Below, piece after piece: positions 15,330 to 38,700 of a stretch of 64,000 nt of DNA (position 1 is the stretch's first letter; the number at the start of each line of letters is the position of its first letter). The notes beneath the pieces were generated by a model that searched no databases, was not told where the DNA came from, and saw only the letters and a list, made by a program, of their open reading frames with translations. The translations under genes and the position numbers were made by a program. Origin of the DNA: Gonapodya prolifera JEL478 (taxonomy: Eukaryota; Monoblepharomycota; Monoblepharidomycetes; Monoblepharidales; Gonapodyaceae). The stretch is from the NCBI GenBank assembly GCA_001574975.1, contig KQ965734.1:201971-265970 (forward strand). Direction: 5' to 3'.

Positions 15330-17347
15330 ATGGCCGCATTGAATGTGAATGCATCGCAGCTGTTCTCGGTGCCCTCGGTGCCCCTCGCGCTCCCCACGTC
15401 TCCCGCGTACATAATCGCATCAATCCTTGTCGCGGTACTGGTCGCCAACTACATTTCGAAAATCGTCTACGAGCTCTATCTGTCACCGCTGCGTGATGTA
15501 CCCATGGACTGGAAACTCATTTTCATTCCGTTTTATGGGCTCGCGTGGACCGTGTCAGGGAAATCGCACCTCTTTTATCTCAAGATGCATCGCAACCTCG
15601 GCAGTGTCGTGCGGTGGGTACTCTGCGGATATCGCTCCTCTTGAAATTTTTCGTTTAACAACCAACGTGCAGCTTGAATACCGACACGGTTTCGGTCTCT
15701 GATCCCGACGTCATCCGTTGGGTGAGTTTTGCATTACTGGCGACACAGACCATATCAAGCATTTATAAATCAATTTCGATTTGGTATCCATTTCAGCTTG
15801 TCCGTGACCTCGACATTCGAAAGAATAAATTTTACGACGTCTTGGGTGACCCTCTGAAGAGCGTGAGTGTCACCTCCCCATCGCCATGCCCCAAACACAC
15901 AACTCATTTTGTGCTAAGGGTGACGTGACGCCGAATCTGCTCACTCTGCGCGACCGATCTGTACACAAAGAGCTCCGAAGCAAAATATCGCCAGCCTTCT
16001 CGATCAAGTACCTTGCTGGATTGGAGCCCCAGCTGCAGGAAATTTTGAAAGAGGTGGACGCCAAGGTCGAAAGCTCGAGAGTAGGAGGAAGCAAGTGGGC
16101 TTCTCTGAACATTGAGCATTTGTACCATGTACGTGAATGCGCATTCAGTATTGGGCAATACCAGCTTTCTCAACTCGAATACAGGCCGTCACAGTGGACT
16201 TTATCGCCGCAACTGCTTTCGGGCAATCCCTTCACGTAGTCAAGAACGGAACCCACCTGTACCTTCAGCAACTCGCCAAGGTCTTTTTCTGGACATTCAT
16301 GGTGATGTCTCTTCCCTTCGCGGGGATTCACAAGCTGCCTCAAGTGCAGCAGCTCCGTGGGGCGCAAGAGACGCTCGTGAAATCCTTCATTGACGAGCGC
16401 AAGCGCGACAATGCGGGGGGAAAGCGCCGCGCGGACATTTTGCAGATCCTGCTCGACAAAGACCTCTCACCGGAAATCACGCGCAGTAACGCGGGTATTT
16501 TGATGGCGGCTGGGTCGGACACCACCGCCAACTCGCTCACCTGGGCGACGTACTTCCTTCTTCAACACCCGGTGGCACTTCAAAAGCTTCGCCTGGAGCT
16601 GGACGACGCATTTCCTGAAGGTCCCGACACGCCTCTCACTTTGACCAAGCTCAAGACATTGCCGTTCCTCACTGCCGTGATAAAGGAAACACTTCGGCTC
16701 AGACCAGTTGCGTCAAAAATTACTCGCGTCGTCGACGAAGACCTTATTTTTGAGTGCACCAACCCAGACGGATCCAAGAGATCGTGCCGGATTCCCTCTG
16801 GGACCGACGTCAATTTGTTTTCGTCAGGACTCCACCGGAACCCAAGACGTGCGTAATGTCTTTTTGTTATTCTCATTCCATTTCGTCAGGACGATTCATT
16901 TTTCCTTACACATCACAGTTTGGGTTCGACCTGACGACTTCTGGCCAGATCGTTGGCTCTCGGAAAAGGTTGCAGATGAAGAAGCATGGGGCATTGTTAG
17001 CGCTCCTGCCACGGGACAGGACAACCGCCTGGAGGAGATTTCCTCTCCTCAAAACACATACTTGGAGGGGTACATGCCATTTTCATTCGGCGCTAGGGAT
17101 TGCATCGGACGAAATTTTGCATGGAACGGTTTGTACACCCTTGATATGACGTCCTCTGCACTTTCACTCCCCTGATCCTCACGTCTGACGCCATTCAGAG
17201 CTTCGAATGGTTCTCGGACACATTGTACACAAGTACGACATCGAACCAGAATGGGACGCGTCGGGGCCGGTCACAGAGGGCAAGGAGGTCATTATGCTCA
17301 AGCCCGATTTCAACATCATGGTGAAGCTGCGCAAGAGGACAGTTTGA
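15330..17347 (+). CDS. Cytochrome P450 monooxygenase
   Basis: Seven exons (15330-15613, 15673-15721, 15797-15862, 15919-16128, 16185-16848, 16919-17128, 17199-17347) join in phase to 543 residues, a usual length for a microsomal fungal P450. An N-terminal hydrophobic helix around residues 25-50 should anchor it in the ER. The I-helix oxygen-binding motif AGSDTT, the K-helix KETLRLRP (ExxR) and the heme-binding loop FSFGARDCIGRNFA with the Cys ligand are all intact, so an active heme enzyme is expected with electrons from NADPH-P450 reductase. Substrate and CYP family cannot be told from sequence alone. It may be unrelated in function to the adjacent kynurenine gene, since the two have separate 5' regions. 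Confidence 0.95.
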
Positions 17348-17594
17348 AGTGGAATTTGTTCATTCTGAGGTACTTGGTTTGTGGCCGGTGCCATTCGTGG
17401 TGTACGGGAACTGCACTCCTCTGCTAGAACTTCGTCATTCGTGAATTATTGGAGAGAAGTATGTCATTCATAGAGACCTATGTCAGTTTTAATGAAGTAT
17501 ATGTTTTGGAGCAAAATGATCGGTCTGGTTCGGCCTGATTGTCAGAACGGTAGAACAACATTCCATCTTAAAATTTGAACTCTCCGCCGAAAAT

Positions 17595-19366
17595 ATGCCA
17601 TTCTCCGTGTGTATTGTTGGCGGTGGTCTTGTAGGAGCTTTGGAAGCGATCTACATGGCAAAGCGGGGCTGGGATGTGCATGTGTATGAGTCAAGAGGAG
17701 GTAACGTGGTTCGCCGATTGTGGTTCTCACCTCTCTTTCTAAAACTGGCACTTATACATCGACATGTCCATCTCGTACAGATCCTCGATCGGAGGTTGTG
17801 ACAGAGGGTCGCTCAATCAATCTTGCAATGTCGCATCGCGCTATCACCGCAATGGAGAAGGTTGGCGTATCAGAGGAAGTCATGCGATGGGTCGTGCCCA
17901 TGAAAGGCAGGATGATTCATTCTCTGGACGGGAGTACAGCAAGTCAGCCGTACAGCATTCGTGGCGAGGTGACAACTACCCGATTCTTGCTCATAAGAAC
18001 ATGAATTGGTAACCTGACACACTTGACAGTGCATTAACTCAGTGGAGAGGAAGCGTCTTAATGAATTTCTACTGGCGGAAGCGGAGAAGCACCCGAACGT
18101 CAAAGTGTACTTCCAACATCGACTGTCGGAAGCTAATCTGGATTCGGGACACTTGGTATTTGAAGGGTGCGTTTAAGCGGAACTGAAATAGTCGATAGTT
18201 GGCTAACGCAAACTCTAAAGCCCCGATAAGCGAACTGTCGACGTCAATGCTGACCTCATCGTTGGAGCTGACGGCGTGTACTCTTTGGTGAGATCTAACG
18301 TCATGAAACGTGTGCGGTAAGTCGTTGCGGTGTGAAGTTTACTACATACTTAAGCTGAGCTCACGCTCCGTCAAATAGCATGGATTTTCAACAAACATAT
18401 ATCGATCACGGATATGTGGAACTCCACATGGAGCCCAGCTCGGATGGGAACTGGCAGATGGATCCAAACCATCTCCACATCTGGCCCAAGCACAGCTATA
18501 TGATGATCGCCCTTCCGAACCCGGTTGGTGAATGCGTGGTGAATGCATGGACCTCAATAATTGTGGATCTCTTCTCTAGGACAAAACATTTACTCTCACG
18601 CTGTTTATGCCTTGGGATAACTTTGAAAACTTGAAAACAGAGGAACAGGTTCTTGACTTCTTCAAGCGCGAATTCCCTGACGTGGTGCCAAAAGTTGGTG
18701 CTGAACAACTCGTCAAAACCTTTTTCCGTAACCCCAAGGGATCCTTAGTACATATCAAGGTGCGCACATTTCCGCTAAGAATAATTGGGAGTATGTGTCA
18801 ACTTCAATTATTCCTCTCGAAAGTGCAAACCCTACAATTACAAACATCGCGCGGTGTTCATTGGAGACGCAGCACATGCCATGGTACCGTTTTACGGCCA
18901 AGGCATGAACTGCGGTTTTGAGGACTGCAGAGTCTTGCATGAGATCTTGGACAAACACTTCGGAATCGATTCCTCGGGCAAACCTCCCTCTCCTGACGAA
19001 CTCGCCAACGCTTTGAGCGAATACAGCAAGATCCGATATCCTGACGTCACCACCATTGTGGACTTGGCCATGTACAATTATGGCGAAATGCGACATTTGG
19101 TTACAGACTGGAGGTATTTTATCCGCAAAAAGGTCGAGGGTTGGTTGCACCTTCTCGTCCCCAGAACAGTCATCCCACTCTATTCGATGGTGAGCTTTTC
19201 GTCAATACCGTACTCCGAGGTGATGCAGAGGTGGCAGAATCAAACAGCTTGGCTGGAAAGGACTGCAGAGGTTGCAATATTGGGGACTGCTGTTACGGCT
19301 CTTACAGTCACTTTGCGAATTCTAAATACGAAAGTTGCTGTTAGCAAACTATTGAGCTTACAATAA
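17595..19366 (+). CDS. BNA4: Kynurenine 3-monooxygenase
   Basis: Flavoprotein that hydroxylates L-kynurenine to 3-hydroxykynurenine with NADPH and oxygen, on the tryptophan-to-NAD route, normally at the outer mitochondrial membrane. Seven exons (17595-17700, 17781-17968, 18030-18166, 18221-18316, 18379-18523, 18580-18759, 18824-19366) give 464 residues. The FAD motif [14 protein letters not shown] is at the N-terminus, followed by [10 protein letters not shown], the second flavin motif [11 protein letters not shown] and [16 protein letters not shown], which is characteristic of this enzyme. Two hydrophobic segments near the C-terminus (around residues 385-410 and 435-455) fit the membrane anchor of the family. 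All splice phases agree and no key motif is missing. Confidence 0.95.
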
Positions 19367-19471
19367 TCCAGCTTATAATAAATCCCCAGTCCACTTTACT
19401 ATTTCCGGGTGAACTTTTTCGGCACGGATAAAAAGTCCCCCGAAGTTGCATTCCAATTTTTGATCATCAAC

Positions 19472-20902
19472 ATGGCATCCGAGCGTGTTCGCCAAATAAC
19501 CAACCAGCTTGTCGCTACAAATGAGACTCTTTCCGCCGTTCCTCCTGCTCTGCAGAAGTTCGACATGTCAGGGAAAGTTGCTGTCGTGACGGGAGGCTCT
19601 CGCGGACTCGGTTAGTCTTGTCGAAGCGATTCGCTTTGTATTCCAAAAATTGATATCCGTGCACCCGACTAGGCCGAGAGATGGTCTTAGCGTTCGCTCA
19701 ATGTGGTGCCGATGTGGTTATTGCATCTCGGAAGCTCGAACAGTGCATTGCCGCTGCGAAAGAGGTCTTAATTTCCAAATTTTGCAATATTAAGAAAAAC
19801 GCTAATGCCCATTCATCCGCAGGTTGAGAAGCTTGGACGAAGAGCTCTCCCCATCGCTTTTAATGCGAACAGTTGGGCCGACTGCAATCGGCTCTACGAA
19901 GAGACATACAAGGCATTTGGCAAGTGTGACGTACTCGTGAACAAGTGAGCTATTCCTATGACAGAATTCCGTCTTGTATAATGGATGAGGCTGAGAGGTA
20001 TTGGAGAAAAGATTGCTGGAACAAGAGCGCTGAGACTTCTCTTGTGCCACAACCATAGTGCCGGAGGGTCCCCCCTCTACTCTTCACTGGTAGAGCACAG
20101 TGAGGCCCTTTATGATAAAGTTCTGGCACTCAACTTGAAGGGACCTTTCAGGCAAGTGGTGGCAACTGTTATCAGTTCTTTCAAGTGTTGACTTCCTATC
20201 CTGCAGATTGAGTGCTCTTTTTGGAACTCGGATGTCGAAGGAGGGAGGCGGTTCTATCATCAATGTGAGCTCTACAGCTTCCCAACGTGTTTCCCAGATT
20301 GGTAAGTGCATAATCGTTGGTTTTGCTGATTATTCAATATTCAACGTTTTTACAGAGGTGAGTTCCGTTTGAAGGACCTGTCCCACGATAAATTGGATCC
20401 AAAGCTCGAAATTTGATAGTTACCTTATGGGATGGCTAAAGCCGGTGAGTCTCATCAACATTGTCTTGCAGTTTCAAGGATAACATCGCATTTTCGACAG
20501 GTTTGAACATGATGACAACCGGCATGGCGAAGGCGTTTGGTCCAAAAGTCCGAGGTAAGAACCCGCTTCTCTCTCGCATTGAATGACAAATTTACCAACC
20601 CACTTATCTTCGCCCTATGCTAGTCAATGTGTGAGTAAAGGTATGGTCCGTCATTTTTGTTGCCGAAATATGACATTTGGTGCCTTTTTTGCCACAGAAT
20701 CGTTCCCGGACCGTTCTTGACGGATATTTCGAAAGCGTGGGACATGGATGCCTTCAACAAACGAGCGCAGGTGTCCATCCCCTTAGGTCGGGGAGGGCAG
20801 GCTAACGAGATTGTCGGTGCTGCACTTCTCCTTGCAACTGAAGCAGGAAGCTACATTACTGGTGCAATACTCAATGTGGACGGAGGTGTGTACTCCAACT
20901 GA
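19472..20902 (+). CDS. Short-chain dehydrogenase/reductase with microexons
   Basis: NAD(P)-dependent oxidoreductase of the classical SDR family; substrate unknown. Ten exons are needed: 19472-19610, 19673-19764, 19823-19944, 20059-20151, 20207-20301, 20356-20357, 20419-20443, 20501-20554, 20624-20630 and 20698-20902, giving 277 residues. The cofactor motif TGGSRGLG, the NNAG motif, NVSS with the catalytic Ser, YGMAK with catalytic Tyr and Lys, and VNVIVPGPF all appear in order. Ser-to-Tyr spacing is 13 residues, as in FabG, but only if the 2-nt exon is used. The fourth intron starts with GC rather than GT. A C-terminal NVDGG motif is present. Alternatives without the microexons give a frameshift or wrong spacing. 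Confidence 0.9.
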
Positions 20903-21216
20903 GCTCCTTCGAATGATCGTCTAACTTACGTTTCAGGACCCCCCAAGAGCGATGCAAATGCAGATATGTAGTTCTAGAAGTACCAACTGTAATTACAAAA
21001 AGAAGTTGGAGCTCCCTGAAAGGAGCAAAAGGCCTCAGGTATTTGGAAGCCAAGAAGCACACCGCATCACTGGATCGCATTTTTGGTCACCGCCCACCCG
21101 CTTTCCCTTACGAGGCGCTTTCTGCCTTTGAGACGGAAGAGCAGACCGATCTTTCGACCGTCTTGCCTCTACAACGAGTTTCAGGGACATTTTCGGTCGA
21201 TGCCGAGGACGAGAGG

Positions 21217-23619
21217 ATGCCCAGAGCTGATTACGAGCCCCTTTACGGTTCCGACGCTGAACTCTACGACGGAGGTGTACCCGAATGGCAATTGCCGTTG
21301 CTAAATGTGGCATCATTGGGGATGCAGTTCGCGTACGTTGAAGTGACGCATCCATCACAATTGTTTCAGAAGCCTCTAACTTAGCTCAATATTTGTGCGC
21401 TGATTGCCGTATGCTTTTGACTTCCTTCTCCTTTGAAATAACGCGGATTCGAACACCGAAGCTGGACCATCGAGCTTGGTTATGGAACACCATTCCTACT
21501 CACCCTTGGGATTCCAAAACCTCTCATGGCGCTAGTATGGATCGCTGGACCTCTTTCAGGTCTTCTAATTCAGCCCATTGTCGGATTCTGGTCAGACAAC
21601 AGTCGTTCTCGTTTTGGCCGTCGACGACCATTCATGGTTGGAGGAGGCGTGCTGACAGTGGGTGCAATGCTGGTCATTGCATACGCGAAAGAAATCGGGA
21701 CTGGAATTTCACAACTTGTGCATGGTGACGTGGCTTTGGTGAGGAGGTTCAGTTTACTAGAGGTGTTCAAGGGACATTCGACATGTGTACTTCACGCAGG
21801 CAAGCCGAATGACTGCATGGTCTGCAGTAATCGGATTCTATGTTCTAGGTGATTTTTTTTCTCACGCGGGAACGCAGACGGAGAGAGCTGGAAAGGGTAA
21901 CCACTGCGAATTTAGACTTCAGCATAAATGCCGTGATGGCTGCTGCCCGTGCTTTGAGTCTTGATATTCCTTCAGTAAGCCAGCAAAGCACTAGCTCTGC
22001 ATGGGCCGGAAGGTTTATTGGGTTCGGCAACATAGCAGGTGTGTCAGTCAACATCTGCGTCCTACCTACTTCGATCTAAACAGAGTCGAAAGGCTACCTC
22101 TGTGGCTATATCGACCTTCCCAAAATTTTGTCTTTCCTTGGGGATACTCAGATGAAGATTCTATGCTGGCTTGCAATAGCTGTCTTTGTGATATCTCTCA
22201 CAATAACATGCTTGAGTGTGAGCGAGAGGCAGCACCAAGGTGGAATAGTTGTGAAGAGGGCACTCGATCCATTTTTGGAGATTTGGCGTGCTCTGAGGAG
22301 GCTTCCACCTCCTATTCAAGGGGTCTGCAACGTTCAGTTTTTTGCTTGGATTGGTTGGTTCCCGGTATTCTTTTACGGCAGTGAGTTCGTTTGACTTGGG
22401 GCAACTGGAGCCTTGACCTTTCATTTCTCCAAATAGCGTCATGGGTTGCGGAGAAGTGCTCCGGACATCCCTTGGAAGATGCCGGTGATGCAGCAGAAGA
22501 GTGCACGCGCGAGGGCTCCCGTGCCATGCTCATCTTTGCTCTTGTGTCCACCGCCACCTCGGTTGTTGTTCCGTGGGTCAAGAGGCAACGTTACGTGTCT
22601 GGTCGGGTCCTTCCAACGTTGAACGAGTTTCTCCCCACAACGCCACATTTATGGTTCTCTGGATGTTTGCTTATGGCGTCTGCCATGTTTTCTACATTTG
22701 GGATCGATGATGCAAGCGGTGCGACAGTGGTGATTGCAGTTTGTGTAGGTAACGCCCATCTCTTTTGGTGTTTCAATGCTTTGGATGCCACATTAACGAC
22801 CGCTGATATCAGGGCGTAAGCTGGGGAATACACATGTATGTTCCATACGTTCTCATCGGTGAACACATGCGGCAGCTTCAGGTTCGCAAGAAGGGAAAAC
22901 GGGATATCCGCAACGAAGCAAGCTCGCCAACACTCGGATCTGAGGCGAATAGGTTGCAAAGCAGTGGGTTAGGAACACCCAGTGACTCAGTATCGGGAAG
23001 GCACCTGGGGGGACGAAAACTTCGTGAGAGCGATGACGAGTCCCTCGATGGAACCGGCAGGGGCGGATCCTTTGAGTCAATGGCAAATCGGAAGTCGCCA
23101 CCGAAGAGGCGTTCGCGGAGCCATGTGATCGGACCAGAGAGGTCTGAATCGGAATCTGACGACGACTCAAACAAGCAACCGCTAATTTCAGATGGACGCA
23201 AAGAGTCACTTACGGTTCAGGAACGATCCAATACCTCCGTGGAATCGCAAATCTTCGCTGAAGATCGTGCCGATCTCGCTGCAGGAACTATTATTGGTAT
23301 TCAGGTGAGCCCGGAAGCTTTATAGCATCATACTTCGATACGAATGCAAGGTCGTTTCGCCGTGCAGAACCTTTACGTAGTCGTGCCACAGTTTATTACC
23401 ACATTTCTCTCCTCCATGATCTTTGCCATCGTCAGCCAAACCAGAACGGTGCTCCCTGATGGAACGGTGGAGACGCACGACGCATTTTCGTGGGTTCTCA
23501 GAATGGGAGGAGTGGGAGCTGTTGCGGCTGCTGTCCTGTGTCTGCGACTGAAAGACGTTGAGCTTGATACCGAAGACAGATCCGATGAAATTTCGCCGAT
23601 TCCTGTTATGTCGCATTAG
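21217..23619 (+). CDS. Sucrose/GPH-type sugar transporter (MFS)
   Basis: Multi-pass plasma-membrane or vacuolar sugar:proton symporter like fungal Sut1 and plant SUC proteins. TM1-TM2 carry ELGYGTPFLLTLG and MALVWIAGPLSGLLIQP, followed by the MFS loop DNSRSRFGRRRPF. Later segments include NAVMAAARAL, SAWAGRFIGFGN and GWFPVFFYG. A long hydrophilic, Ser- and Asp-rich loop of about 150 residues (22860-23290) lies before the last two helices, as in other fungal family members, and may carry phosphorylation sites. Several short introns interrupt the gene (for example 21333-21461). The chosen start is the first in-frame ATG in the first open exon; the frame is open for about 170 bp upstream without an ATG, so an earlier exon is possible. 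Confidence 0.88.
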
Positions 23620-23708
23620 CTTTGTCATTGTAGTACTGATGGAGGGTGGAGGGGCTTGCATTTGCTATGGTCGGTCACACCTGCTTCAAACACGATCATT
23701 TTCATTGA

Positions 23709-26700
23709 ATGGCGGATCTGGACATCGATCCGCCTCTTGGCACGCCGTCCCCGGGCCCCGTTGTCTCTGTTGACCCTTCTGTCCTCCTCTCCCATATCGA
23801 ATCGCTCGCCGCAATACTTCTGGATGCCGATCCAGTTCACGTACGCTCAGCCTTGTCAGCAGACCCAGCAACAAATGAAAGATGCAAGCGCTTTTCGACG
23901 GAGGGAGCCGCGGTGGTTGCCCAGGTCGTAAGGGAAAGGGGTGAAGGTGAAAAAGGTGTGTTTCACCAACGCGAAGATGGATTGGAGACGAAAAGCAGTA
24001 CCAGGTAACGAACACGAATGGAGATTACCTAAAGTGGTGATCAAATGAGGAGTTATTTTTCTGGATTACGATCAGATTCTGAAGCGACTAGACTATTATC
24101 GTGTCACGGAACGCAGAACACGGATGTAATTCTTTGAGGGGGCAGTCCTCGGAACTGCATCGAAAGTGAGAATGAACCACGGATGAGGAAACTCTATCCG
24201 AACTCTTGTCGAGCACAATATATTTATCCCTCCTCAAAACTAAACCCCCACCCCACATTGCCCTGAAAGATTCGGAACCATCCTCAGCTCCAACCTTCCG
24301 GTTTCTTCTGGAAGTTTCTCTGACTCCTTCGCACACTGGCTCGTTCGTTCTCATCAAGCGTGGACCACAATTGGTCCCAACAACGTCGTTGTCGCAACAA
24401 CTCCAGGTCCTTAACGTTCCCGAAGGTGGCTCCGCCTATGAGACACTGTGGCAGTATGTGCACAATGCAGTAGCACCAATATTTGAGGCTTATGTGGGAC
24501 AAAGGAGCGGAGTTGATAAAGACGGAAAATCGGGTAAGTCTCGCTGGACCAGAAACTTCTTTCTTTCTTTCATTATTTCAGATGTACTAACGTTGAAATG
24601 TCAGGAATCCCTGCTGCCAAGAAGAAAATTGCTGAGCTCGAACTCTCCTTATTGAACTTGCAGCAGAATGTCGACATACCTGATGTCACATTAACAATCC
24701 ACCCGGCGATTGCCCGTGCCGCATTGGCATGCCGTGAAGCTGGTCGGCGCCCATCTCCAGACGCCATTGGGGGTTATCTACTGAATGATTCCGGATTCCT
24801 AAATCGCGTACAGGCGGATGTCAATATGTGGATTAAAGAAATCCAGAAGGTAACAAAACTGGATCGTGATCCCGGTTCCGGAACGGCATCACAAGAAATC
24901 AACTTCTGGCTTGGTATGGAGAGAGCAATCACAACAATAGAGGATCGCCTGAAGTCTGATGAAGCTGCACTCACACTCGATATGCTCCGCCATGCGAAGC
25001 GCTTTCATGCGACTGTATCATTCCTCGCAGACACCGGTCTTAAGGATGCAGGAGAGCGGGTTCAACGGTATAACCAACTGATGAAGGATTTCCCGTTGGG
25101 GGAACTGCTGTCCGCGCCGGATGTGGATAAAATTCGTGATGCGGTCCAACTCATTTTTCAGCATATGGGGCGCAAGCTTCGCGCGTCTCCGTACCCAATA
25201 CGACGGGCACTTGCGCTTGTCGAGGCCATTTCTCGGGATCTGTCTGACCAACTGCTCCGGGTACTCGCCCCGCGCAGGCTCATGTTCATTCCATATGCGG
25301 AGTTTGACCGCGCAACGTCAGGATGCGAGGCTGTGTTTAATGCGTGGGACGAGGAGCTGAAAGAGTTTTTACCCACGGCGAGAGACCTGATCCGCAAACG
25401 ATCGGAGAAGCCAATGCAGATGAAGGTCGTTCCTGCTCACGGGAGACTGCAGGAACGCATTAAGTACGTAAGACAGTTTCGGAGGGGTCACGAACAGCTT
25501 CTGGAGACAATCCAACGAGTGTTGGGTGGAGAGGATGAAAAGAAGTCCAACGTCGGTGGCACCATTGGGGGAAAAGGTGATCCAACATTGAACGGCATGT
25601 CTGGGTCAACTGCATTAGAGGATGTTACCCAAGCGTACGAGATAGTGAAGAGGGTGGATGTGTTGGATGTAACCACAGGTACGTTAGGGGTTGGATTGGG
25701 TTCCTTTGAATGCAAGCCACATCGGCACTGACCCCGTATTGTTAGACGGCACGGAAATCTGGGTCGCAGCAGAAAATGCATATAATGAGCACATTGCACA
25801 AGTGGAGAACCAAATAATTTCACTGCTTCGGGATCGTCTCGGCGCCTGTCGCAATGCGTCCGAAATGTTCCGTGTTCTCGGCAAATTCAATGCTTTGTTT
25901 GTTCGCCCAAAAATACGCGGGGCCATCCAAGAATATCAGTCGCAGCTTATTGATAATGTCAAGGAAGATATCCACAACCTTCACGATAAGTTTAAGCGCC
26001 GGTATGAAAATTCGGAGGCAGCATTAGTCAGCAGGCTAAGAGATGTGCCTGACGTCAGCGGGACGATAATTTGGATCAAACAGATTGAACTGCAACTTGC
26101 GGCGTACATGAGCCGAGTGGAGAACGTTCTTGGAAACAGGTGGCAGGAGTACGCCGAGGGCCAGAAGCTTGCCGCAGAATGGAGAGCGTTCAAGTCACGC
26201 CTCGAAACTAAGCCTCTCTTTGATGCATGGCTCAAAACTGTTCAGGATCGGGGAAATGCACAAGCCCAACGTGTATTTGCGATTGTGAAGACCCGAGGTA
26301 CTTCTTTCGCCGGGCCAAGTGGTAGACCTGGCTCTCCAACAAAGGAGTCGTTTACAACAGCCACAGCGGGTGTTGGTGCACCAGTTCTACAACTCACTGT
26401 TAACTTCGACAACCAACTTGTGCAATTGTTCAAAGAAATTCGTAACCTTTTGTGGCTTGGGTACAGCATTCCATATTCTGTCACTAACCTTGGCAAAGAA
26501 GTTCGTCGCGTTTATCCATTTTCTGTCGCGATACGGGAGACTGTCAGAACGTATGGAAAGGTCTGCGAAGATGTTATCCGCCACAATAATGCCTCGGTGG
26601 AACCTCTCATTGCCACGTACAAACGGGACGTCCAGCAGGCATTGGCACGAATGATGCCCTACAAGTGGGACATGTTTGTGAATTCAAGTTTGGAACGAGA

Positions 26701-32700: not shown

Positions 32701-35700
32701 ACGGACAAGTACGGCACCCAACGTGTTATCTCCTTTTTGCGACAATTAGTTGCTGATAACGGCTTCTGGAGGACTTCAGATAAGTCGTTCGTGCGGCTTG
32801 AACGCATTCAATTTGTCGGAGCATGCAATCCCCCGACGGACCCCGGACGTGTGCCTCTTTCTCATCGATTTTTGCGGCATGCACCAGTTGTGCTGGTTGA
32901 CTACCCCGGTGAAATTTCATTGCAACAAATATACGGAACATTCAGTCGAGCGGCTCTGAAGGTTGTACCCTCACTTCGTGGATATTCAGCGCCTTTAACT
33001 TCTGCGATGGTTGAGTTTTACGTGAGGTCTCAGAAACACTTCACACCAGACATTCAAGCCCACTACATCTACAGCCCAAGAGAACTTACGAGATGGATCC
33101 GTGGAATTTACGAAGCACTCAAGCCTCTTGAATCCGCCTCGGTGGAGGGCTTAGTCAGAATATGGGCTCACGAGGGACTTCGTCTTTTCCAAGATAGGCT
33201 TGTGTCAATCGAGGAGAGAAATTGGACGGACGAGGTTATCAACGAGATGGCGTCGAAGTATTTCCCAACAATAAGTAGAGACGAAGCTCTCGAACGCCCA
33301 ATGCTTTATTCGAACTGGCTTTCAAAGTTCTACGTACCGGTCCAACGGGAGCAACTTCGTGATTTTGTCAAAGCAAGATTGAGAGTCTTCTATGAGGAAG
33401 AGCTGGATGTTCCGCTCGTTTTATTTAATGATGTTTTGGAGCATGTTCTCCGGATCGACCGTGTCTTTCGCCAAGTACAAGGTCACTTGCTGCTGATCGG
33501 AGTGAGTGGAAGTGGAAAAGTGAGTATTTTGCGCGTACTGGAGCTTTTCAGGCATAAGTTTCACCTGTCCTCACATTTGCTATCGGTTACATAGACGACA
33601 TTGTCTCGGTTTGTAGCATGGATGAATGGTCTCAGCACCTTTCAGATCAAAGTGCACAACAAATACACCGCGGAGGATTTCGATGAAGATTTGCGTCAAG
33701 TACTTCGTCGGGCAGGTTGCAAGGGAGAGAAAATGGTTTTCATCATGGACGAATCCAACGTACTGGAGTCCAGTTTTCTGGAACGAATGAATACCCTTCT
33801 TGCAAATTCTGAGATACCGGGTCTTTTTGAAGGTGATGATTACAGTTCATTAATGACACAGTGCAAGGAAGGTGCCCAAAGAGAAGGACTAATACTTGAC
33901 TCGGGGGAGGAATTGTACAAATGGTTCACTGCCCAGATAACCAAGGTAAGTTTCACTGTTGGCGAAGTTCGCTCGGTCGTGTAGCTATTCCTTAACTTCT
34001 GTTTCCAGAATCTTCACGTTGTGTTCACAATGAATCCACCTGAAGGTGGTCTCGCAACTCGAGCAGCCACATCGCCAGCCCTATTTAATCGTTGTGTACT
34101 TGATTGGTTTGGAGATTGGTCCGATCAGGCTCTTTTCCAGGTCGGCGCTGAGTTTACGCAGAATTTAGACGTGGATGATCCAAAGTACACCACTCCGGAT
34201 GGATTCCCCGTCATCTACAAGGACTTAAGTCTTCCTACGACTCAAAGATTGGCGGTGGTTAACGCGTTTGTTGGCGTTCACCAATCGCTGTATGACATCA
34301 ATTCGAAGATGAGTAAACGGACGGGAAGGACCAATCACGTAACACCACGCCACTATTTGGACTTTATCAAACATTATGAGAGACTCTTCAGAGAAAAGAA
34401 AGATGAGCTGGAGGAGCAGCAGCGCCATCTCAACGTTGGATTGGATAAACTCCGGGACACTGTCATTAAAGTGGAGGAACTGCGAATAAGTTTGGCTGAA
34501 AAAGGACGAGAGCTTGAAAACAAAAATGACTTGGCCAATGAAAAATTAAAACGAATGCTGGCAGAGCAGAATGAGGCAGAACAGAAACGTGTTGTATCAC
34601 TTCAAATCCAGCGTGACCTGGGAAAACAGAACGACGAGATTGCATCCAGAAGGCAGCTTGTGATTGACGATCTTGCGAAAGCTGAACCTGCAGTCCTCGA
34701 GGCTCAGAGGAGTGTATCAAATATAAAAAAGCAACACCTGGTGGAGCTGAGGTCTATGGGTAGTCCTCCTACTGCAGTCAAACTCGCACTGGAATCTGTT
34801 TGTGTCCTTCTCGGAGAGAGAGTAGCAGATTGGAAAAGCGTTCAAAGCATAATCAAACGTGACGACTTCATAGCGAACATTATTAACTTCAACACAGACA
34901 AGCTAACGTCGTCCATGAAAAAGGTCATTAAAGATCAGTACATGTCGGACCCTATTTACAACTACGAGACTGTTAACAGAGCGAGTAAAGCTTGTGGACC
35001 GTTGGTACAGTGGGTCCTTGCCCAAGTGAATTACTCTGAGATCTTGGAGCGTGTTGGGCCACTGCGAGACGAAGTCACTAGACTAGAGGATAGCCAAAAA
35101 GAGACACAGCACCGTGCAACGCAGATTGAAGAAATGGTTGGAGAACTTGAAGATAGCATTACCCGTTACAAAGACGAGTATGCTGCTTTAATCGCTGAAG
35201 TTCAGGGTATCAAGATGGAAATGGAGAAAGTGAGGAGCAAGGTTGACAGAAGCATCAAGTTGCTGAGCAACCTATCTTCTGAGAAGGAACGTTGGGAGGA
35301 CACATCATCCAGCTTTGAGAGTCAGATGGCGACAATTGTTGGAGATGTTCTTCTTGCATCCGCGTTCCTTGCATATGCGGGATTCTTTGATCAACAGTAT
35401 CGTGACCAGCTGATAATGAAGTGGTCGGATCTCCTTCGGAAATCGGGTCTGCGGTTCAAGCAGGACATTTCGCTCCCCGAATTTCTGTCCACGGCGGAAG
35501 AGCGTTTGGCATGGAGGCAACACGGGCTTCCGGCCGATGATCTTTGTACTGAGAACGCCGTGATGCTAAAGCGCTTTAATCGTTATCCGCTCATCATTGA
35601 CCCTTCAGGCCAAGCGACAACGTTTTTGTTAAATGAGTACAAGGGTCGCAAAATTGCTGTTACCAGCTTCCTCGATGATGCGTTTACAAAGGCCCTAGAA

Positions 35701-38700
35701 AGTGCTCTGCGGTTCGGAAACCCTCTTTTGATACAAGATGTAGAACATCTTGACCCGATTCTAAATCCTGTGTTGAATCGAGAGCTCAGAAAGACAGGAG
35801 GAAGGACGTTGATACGATTGGGCAATCAAGACATTGACTTTTCTCCAGCATTTATGCTCTTCCTGTCGACACGTGACCCTTCAGCAAACTTCCGGCCCGA
35901 TTTGAGCAGTCGCGTAACGTTTGTCAATTTTACAGTCACCAGAGCAAGTCTTCAAAGTCAATGCCTGCACGAAGTATTGAAGTCCGAACGCCCAGACGTC
36001 GACCGCAAGAGAAATGACTTGATAAAGCTTCAAGGAGAATTTCAACTCCGATTGAGACAGCTCGAAAAATCGCTGCTTCAAGCCCTTAATGATTCAAAGG
36101 GCAATATTTTGGACGATGACCATGTTATGACCACTTTGGAAACTCTGAAGCAAGAGGCCGCGGATGTATCCGCAAAGGTCGAAGAAACGGACTCGATTAT
36201 GAAAGAAGTTGAAGTGGTCACGGACGTTTACACGCCATTGGCAACCGCATGCAGTTCAATTTTCTTCGTGTTGGAACAACTCAGCAGTATTCATCACTTC
36301 TACCGTTTCTCGCTGGACTTCTTTTATGAAATATTCGACAGTGTCATTCATCGAAACACAAACATCGCCAAGTTGACTGAACCCCTGGAACGACTGCGGA
36401 TTCTTAACAGGGACCTCTTCCGTGTTACCTTTGCCCGCACGGCGATATCTCTACTCAATGAGGATCAATATGTGTTTGCATTACTTTTATCTCAGATCAA
36501 AATTAGGGGCACATCTGACCAACCTGAAGACATGGAGTATGAACTGTTGTTGGGAATGGCGGAGAGTGTCCTTGGAACACCCATCACCGGTCTCGATTTG
36601 AATCGTATAATCAAAATCACGGGAGAGGTGATAGGGAAGCGCGTTGCAGAGTACAGTGCAGCGCCAATGTTCAAAGGACTGCCAAACCACGTATTGCAAA
36701 ACGAAGAATTGTGGAAAGCGTTCATGAATGATCCGTCTCCCGAAGAATCAGTACCTGATTGTTGGGAGCTCTCTAAAGGTGCAACAAACGGTGAGCGATG
36801 ATATGATGGCTATTCACCTGAGGCAAACCATGACTTTCTCTCCGTGTCAGGCCCAGTCGCAAGTGCGTTCCGTAATCTTCTTGTGGTCAAAGCATTCCGA
36901 CCGGATCGACTCAGGGCAGCGACGACTAAGTTTCTGGAGACGACTTTTGACTTGAACCTCCTCGAATCTCGAGATTTGAGCCTAAGAACAGTCGTAGATG
37001 AAGTCAAGGCAACAACACCCTTGGTATTCTCTTCTGTGCCCGGCTTCGATGCAAGCGATAGGGTGGAAAACCTCGCCGCGGAGTATGGAGCAAAGCTTTC
37101 AGCAGTTGCTATGGGTTCCGCTGAAGGTTTTAGCTTGGCTGATAGTGCAATCGCGCATGCTGTGAAGAACGGAACTTGGGTACTACTCAAGAACGTTCAC
37201 TTAGCGTCCCATTGGTTGGGCCACCTCGAAAAGAGGCTGACAACCCTGAAGCCGAACAAGAACTTCCGCTTGTTTCTCACAACGGAAACGTCGCCCAAGG
37301 TTCCTGCGAACCTCCTTCGATTATCTAGGGTCCTAATGTTTGAGCCACCACCAGGGATAAAAGCTTCAATGCAATCAGCGCTTGCAAGTATAGCCCCGCA
37401 GCGTTACTCGAAGGGACCGGTCGAAAAAAGTCGACTGTATTTCCTGTTGGCTTGGCTTCATTCTGTCGTCCAAGAACGTCTTCGATACGTACCTGTTGGT
37501 TGGACGAAACGCTACGAGTTCACAGAAGCAGACTTTGAGTCATCACTCACGACAGTGGACGTTTGGATAGAACTCGTTGCTCAAGGAAGGTCAAATATCA
37601 GTCCAACTAAAATTCCTTGGGATGCATTACGTCAGTTGGTCAAGGAGACAATCTATGGGGGCAAGATCGACAATGATTTTGATCAGGAGATCCTGAACAC
37701 TTTCATCGATGAGCTTTTCACTCCACATTCTTACGATATCGGATTCAAACTTGTTAATGATCCTGCCGCGGATCGCTCCCTCGTGGTTGCTGAAGGCACG
37801 AGAGTGGAGCACTTTATGGAGTGGGTAGACAACCTTCCGGACCAAGAACCACCAACATGGTTGGGATTGCCTGACAATGCGGACAAAGTGCTATCTGCCA
37901 ATAAAGGTATAAATCGGATTTAATCATTCGAGTTTGAGTATTGAGCCAATCGGTTTCTTTTACAGGGTTTGAGCTGTTATCGAAAGTACGTCAGCTTCGT
38001 AGCCTATTGGACGATGATGAAGTTGCATATGCACCGGAAGCCAAAGGCATCAAAGAGGGGCCTTCTTCCGGTTTCGTTCAGCCGGCCTGGATGCGAAACT
38101 TGCATATTGTTTGTGATAATTGGCTCAGCTTATTACCGGACGTAAGTTCTCCAACGAAAGCAAAAGACGACATGATTCCGACGTTTCACTATTGTTTATT
38201 ATCTAAGGTACTACCGCACCTTCCCCGATATAATGACAGCGTTCGCGACCCACTGTTCCGTTTCTTTGACCGAGAGTTTAAAATTGGGACAAGTTTGCTC
38301 GCAACTGTAAGAAAAGATTTGATAGACCTGAAAACGGTCTGTGAAGGTCGGGGAAAGCAAACGAACCGCTTGAGGGGGCTCGTGGTCTCTTTGACTGGTG
38401 GTGAGTTCCGTCTTGAGCATGACTGTTTGATTCTTTGCCGACACCTTGGTTTTAGGTGTAATTCCCACCAACTGGAAAATATATAAAACACCGAAAGACC
38501 TCTCGCTGAATTCCTTCGTTCCGGACCTCGCGTATCGCCTCACTCAGCTCAAGATGGTATCTGCTCGGTCAATGCCTTCATCCTCTGGAGTGAAGCAAAT
38601 TCAGCCAATTGTTATGTCTGAAGTAATTCTGAACACACCCATATCTATCGGAGCACTGTTCATGCCAGATGCATTTATTACAGCAACTCGACAAGCCGTT

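Follow-up and report, generated by a model that had tools for sequence, protein, structure and literature searches.

How can a gene keep its reading frame across a junction whose two flanking exons do not fit together? This question is raised by a short-chain dehydrogenase/reductase (SDR) gene in the window, i.e. the whole 64,000-nt stretch of DNA that was analysed, in which the exon bearing the catalytic Ser ends in phase 1 and the exon bearing the catalytic Tyr begins in phase 0. Judging from the sequence, positions 20356-20357 (AG) are most probably a constitutive exon of two nucleotides lying between two short canonical GT-AG introns. The splice sites, the frame and the restored protein are read directly, and the splicing itself is what we infer from them.

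The dehydrogenase gene and its probable two-base exon

Classical SDR proteins carry the motifs TGxxxGxG and NNAG, a catalytic Ser and YxxxK. In the spliced product of the gene these are found as TGGSRGLG, NNAG, INVSS and YGMAK, and on Pfam the protein matches adh_short_C2 (PF13561; E=3.5e-50, 171.2 bits, curated cut-off 27) and adh_short (PF00106; E=1.6e-46, 158.7 bits, curated cut-off 26.6). It is a predicted classical short-chain dehydrogenase. The features are given below with their positions in the window.

19472-20971, + strand: short-chain dehydrogenase/reductase gene, 11-exon model, 852-nt CDS, 283 amino acids
20152-20206, + strand: intron 4 of the same gene, GC-AG (GCAAGT...CAG)
20207-20301, + strand: exon 5, encoding INVSS with the catalytic Ser; phase 1 at its 3' end, last base G
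20302-20355, + strand: intron 5, 54 nt, GTAAGT...CTGAT...TTTTTACAG, G+C 31%
20356-20357, + strand: predicted 2-nt exon AG, completing the codon GAG (Glu)
20358-20419, + strand: intron 6, 62 nt, GTGAGT...GATAG, canonical GT-AG
20420-20444, + strand: exon 7, 25 nt, LPYGMAKA with the catalytic Tyr and Lys; phase 0
20624-20630, + strand: second microexon, 7 nt (TCAATGT), giving the Asn of RVNxIxPG

An earlier note on this DNA had placed the end of exon 5 in phase 1 at a donor at 20302, and direct reading bears this out: the exon closes with ...CAG ATT G and is followed by GTAAGT. The acceptor, the two bases and the GTGAGT donor that it described are there as well, since TTTTTACAG ends at 20355, AG occupies 20356-20357 and GTGAGT begins at 20358. 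The next acceptor downstream, ATAG, has its last base at 20419. The note was right that the Tyr exon is in phase 0 but put its start at 20419, one base too early; because the exon begins at 20420, the second intron measures 62 nt instead of the 61 nt claimed, while the 54 nt of the first stands. Both lengths are ordinary locally, as had been said, the 77 introns predicted in the window having a median of 66 nt. Introns so short and so densely spaced suggest that the gene is fungal. Exon 7 reads TTA CCT TAT GGG ATG GCT AAA GCC G, and joining 20301 directly to 20420 gives ...SQIVTLWDG*, i.e. the anticipated frameshift, with a stop after six residues. With AG included, the predicted junction reads CAG ATT GAG TTA CCT TAT, the codon G+AG is Glu, the frame is kept and the Ser and Tyr stand 13 residues apart.

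Compared with the 77 predicted window introns, intron 5 has its donor at the 84th percentile and its acceptor at the 86th, and the intron 6 donor is at the 96th. The intron 6 acceptor is weak (9th percentile); weaker ones are found in the same gene in intron 1 (1st percentile) and intron 3 (6th). A YTRAY branch match, CTGAT, lies at 20326 in intron 5, and none was found in intron 6, such a match being absent in five of the ten introns of the gene, intron 6 included.

Some further observations concern the gene model and its surroundings. The 7-nt exon is flanked by introns of 69 and 67 nt. Intron 2 as modelled (19765-19822) has a very poor donor, GTCTTA, scoring under all 77 training introns; an intron near 19765 is needed because reading on hits a stop, and its exact donor is uncertain. 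At the 3' end (20886-20971) the gene has two possible terminations, one by reading on to a stop at 20900-20902 (GGVYSN) and one through a 51-nt intron with a stop at 20969-20971 (GGPPKSDANADM). According to Pfam, the neighbours are an FAD-binding-domain gene (its end, 18785-19366), an MFS-type sugar-transporter gene (21442-21852) and, further away, a dynein heavy chain (34009-36000).

Relatives, chance controls and a homology-free model

Since the residue count between the active-site positions is fixed, the location of the junction within the active site supplies an independent ruler for the 2-nt exon. Among the sequences searched, the nearest relatives are bacterial, at up to 68% identity. 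Genome contigs gave 15 loci, 57-68% identical, and in two phylum samples searched at E<=1e-60 a match was present in 15 of 296 genomes and in 5 of 299, including those of L012 and L019. Leaving out L026 (partial, residues 30-152) and the duplicates L028 and L045, 34 distinct proteins of 49-68% identity were retained, which are not independent as several are near-copies of one lineage. The earlier note had expected 13 residues between Ser and Tyr, and the Ser/Thr position is indeed 13 residues from the Tyr in all 34. The stretch is aligned gap-free in 31 of them; in L038, L046 and L048 the aligner places gaps, and a direct residue count still gives 13. Among the 33 proteins with YxxxKA, the position 13 residues upstream is Ser in 27, Thr in five and an undetermined X in one, and the remaining protein, L030, in which the motif as written is absent, has Ser at 13 in the alignment. 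In the column of the split codon G|AG, the relatives most often have Glu (10/34), followed by Ile (8), Ser (5), Val (3), Pro (3) and Asp, Ala, Phe, Met and Thr (1 each), the three Pro belonging to the three gapped rows. Furthermore, the five best solved structures have no gap at the split codon, four of the five being near-identical 7-alpha-hydroxysteroid dehydrogenases.

Within the same genome, the paralogues L007 and L008 have a spacing of 13 and no intron at this place, as counted by eye. The other SDR matches of this genome are far weaker than the bacterial ones (best 30% over 226 residues, E=1.1e-22), and L007 itself (positions 619-1281 of its locus, G000 contig C70) is an uninterrupted FabG-like SDR frame of about 53% G+C and 30% identity. 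A scan of viral contigs found no relative of the protein. A bacterial origin of the SDR gene is possible from these sequences.

All splicings of the region 20207-20444 with none, one or two introns, running from GT or GCAAG to AG and at least 40 nt long, were then enumerated, and with one GT-AT reading added these came to 682. Counting as open those with a stop at residue 280 or later, 26 were open; a few with stops at 277-279 are outside this count and were scored. Scored against a profile of 14 proteins, all of them bacterial, the 2-nt exon comes out top at 392.1 bits, tied with the GT-AT intron because the two proteins are identical. This best-scoring protein supports the earlier claim that the two bases restore the frame. 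Next come a 17-nt exon (390.1 bits), a 4-nt exon (387.1 bits) and an 11-nt exon (386.3 bits), and retention of intron 5 with removal of intron 6 scores 375.5 bits. The margin over the second-best protein is small, 2 bits, and it is the strength of the sites that separates the candidates.

Site strength was measured with matrices from 77 introns predicted by our own model, this gene's intron being excluded. The acceptor and donor of the 2-nt exon together score 18.9 bits, a figure to be compared indicatively, since the matrices are partly circular, our model having begun from a generic fungal consensus. From the same donor at 20302, the other frame-restoring exons score 7.2 bits (11 nt), -0.4 bits (5 nt) and -7.8 bits (17 nt); of the four between 20301 and 20420, the 2-nt exon is the only one with strong sites on both sides. 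Some frame rescue is present in 7,715 of 18,120 window segments, which overlap one another, and in 7,855 of 20,000 dinucleotide shuffles, and because it is present in about 40% of controls, rescue as such means little. A frame-restoring exon scoring at least 18.9 bits was found in none of the 18,120 segments and none of the 20,000 shuffles. Taken alone, the pattern YAGNNGTRAGT is not rare, with 3 occurrences in the window against 1.35 expected, and is uninformative; the tighter TTNYAGNNGTRAGT occurs twice against 0.09 expected. Sites 31103 and 46825, which bear the word CAGAGGTRAGT, were considered as further 2-nt exons and rejected, as on inspection they look like ordinary exon ends.

A Viterbi exon/intron model was also run. 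It took its codon usage from long ORFs, used generic site matrices, allowed introns of 40-160 nt and had no exon-length prior; it is this model that predicted the 77 window introns. On the whole window, at a penalty of -16, it predicts the exons 20356-20357 and 20624-20630 unaided, and these are its only internal exons shorter than 25 nt. The model is crude, as this same run fused the SDR gene with the downstream gene and set the start at 19985. When 24 settings were applied to 17001-24000, 19 of them gave the 2-nt exon and 18 the 7-nt exon; the five settings that lack the 2-nt exon place no exon edge within 20200-20460. Being ignorant of steric limits, the model tests the sequence only.

Other readings of the junction

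If intron 5 were retained, exon 5 would run to 20357, only intron 6 would be removed and 18 residues would be added between Ser and Tyr. The 54 nt are free of stops in frame, intron 6 is canonical and a full-length protein results. However, the spacing would then be 31 where the 34 relatives, near-copies among them, all have 13, and intron 5 has a lower G+C content than any segment of its length in the spliced CDS, where the lowest value is 41%, the median of predicted introns being 45%. Moreover, the coding score of the segment falls in the lowest 1.5% of 18-codon stretches of the CDS, it has a good donor, a good branch-like sequence (CTGAT) and a good acceptor, and the Viterbi model chose retention in none of its 24 settings. 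We therefore give retention as the constitutive form a slim chance, although it could occur as a regulated or faulty isoform. As intron 5 is open in frame, annotation software in which very small exons are disallowed would likely give a single exon 20207-20357.

A single non-canonical GT-AT intron of 116 nt (20302-20417), with AG at 20418-20419 exonic, would yield the identical mRNA and protein, hence its equal profile score, and its length is not unheard of, intron 3 having 114 nt and six of the 77 window introns at least 125 nt. Yet it requires a 3' splice site ending in TTTGAT, and it leaves unexplained the acceptor and donor at 20344-20363, which together score above any rescue of the frame among the 38,120 controls and whose place also divides the stretch into two introns of ordinary length. 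We consider the GT-AT intron very unlikely. The ambiguity is nevertheless instructive: because the exon is AG and intron 6 also ends in AG, the mature mRNA ...ATTG-AG-TTACC is the same in both cases, and so is the predicted mature product ...CAGATTGAGTTACC. Reads containing AG cannot for this reason settle the exon on their own, and in read mapping the AG of the exon may be assigned to 20418-20419. A 1-nt exon G, as in the Fusarium CYP621A genes discussed below, would by our own inference be likewise ambiguous in mRNA alone. There is thus a general trap, in that an exon consisting of AG, or of G alone, before an intron ending in AG mimics a non-canonical 3' end in mature mRNA; some apparent non-canonical introns may conceal such exons, and conversely.

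An assembly or sequencing error, or decay of the gene, would mean that a single ordinary intron was intended, and just one copy of the gene was found in the assembly. Such an error must delete exactly two bases at an exon edge while an excellent acceptor/donor pair stands in the intron by chance, and the bacterial relatives align without gaps as far as the junction from either side. The gene is otherwise intact, its frame closing over the remaining exons, and we hold an error or decay to be correspondingly improbable. Another canonical choice of exon, either 17 nt (20363-20379) with a donor at 20287 or 11 nt (20356-20366), keeps the frame open at profile scores close to the best, but exons of 11, 5 and 17 nt scored from donor 20302 only stay below the 18.9 bits of the 2-nt exon, and this choice is extremely unlikely.

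Splicing order, origin and known ultra-short exons

For the 2-nt exon, the question becomes how it could be recognised. Where introns are about 50-80 nt long, the two ends of each intron are probably recognised as a pair (intron definition), and exon length need not limit recognition when sites are paired in this way. The acceptor of intron 5 and the donor of intron 6 could hardly be occupied together, as the final base of intron 5 is one of those in the intron 6 donor that pair with U1 (20355-20363). The overlap of the sites suggests that introns 5 and 6 are probably removed in succession. Were intron 5 to leave first, the donor would stand in the context ATTGAG|GTGAGT (half-spliced ...ATTGAG|GTGAGTTCC); if intron 6 left first, TTTTTACAG|AGTTACC would remain, an ordinary acceptor. 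Both orders would leave ordinary substrates and lead to the same final codons.

The exon probably arose from two intron gains 2 nt apart in one ancestral exon. Two gains within one codon are favoured because the bacterial relatives and the paralogues L007 and L008 read straight through this place, and the introns here may be private to the SDR gene. A search for a duplication origin detected no repeats of at least 10 nt in 20150-20720, and introns 5 and 6 have no common match beyond 5-8 nt. As a speculative scenario, which is possible though doubtful in its entirety, an intronless gene of bacterial type would have entered the genome and gained ten introns, two of them in one codon, the overlapping donor would force strictly sequential splicing, and the spliceosome would be without a practical lower limit of exon length.

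The earlier note had set exons this short at or below the limit of the spliceosome. This is out of date, since experiments or sequencing reads support 1-nt exons in Arabidopsis APC11, in plant VPS55 and in Fusarium CYP621A. The Fusarium CYP621A P450 genes have a single-nucleotide exon (G), reported in 20 orthologues and backed by 18 SRA reads (Nelson and Syed 2026, PMC12940212), and the same authors cite exons of 2-5 bp in Arabidopsis, Drosophila and humans. That case and the present one share short introns in a fungal gene, a junction that is out of phase within a conserved motif, canonical AG and GT on the two sides and an intronless relative that serves as a length marker; here, in contrast, the exon is AG and is predicted in one genome from the sequence. 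In Arabidopsis APC11 a single-nucleotide exon A lies in a 422-nt plant intron stretch, and reporters in which the exon base was replaced supplied the proof (Guo and Liu 2015, PMC4674806). This is likewise a constitutive ultra-short exon required for the frame, but its A cannot be confused with the final base of the intron that follows, whereas our AG can be confused with the final two. The 1-nt microexons of plant APC11 and VPS55 belong to conserved clusters supported by RNA-seq and RT-PCR, are flanked by introns and are missing from reference annotations (PMC8831610); the present exon resembles them in being unannotated and intron-flanked, and differs from them in that they have conserved clusters with transcript support. 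Trichoderma Xlr2 also has a fungal microexon, of 20 nt, which acts as an alternatively spliced switch (PMC11121469), while no sign of regulation was seen here.

A literature search for a named 2-nt exon found none among the matches listed. Exons this small are rare, and as single-nucleotide exons are documented, the 2-nt exon would add a new example to a kind of exon already known. Gene finders and read mappers readily overlook exons of 1-2 nt, so that genes containing them may be annotated with false insertions, with frameshifts or as pseudogenes.
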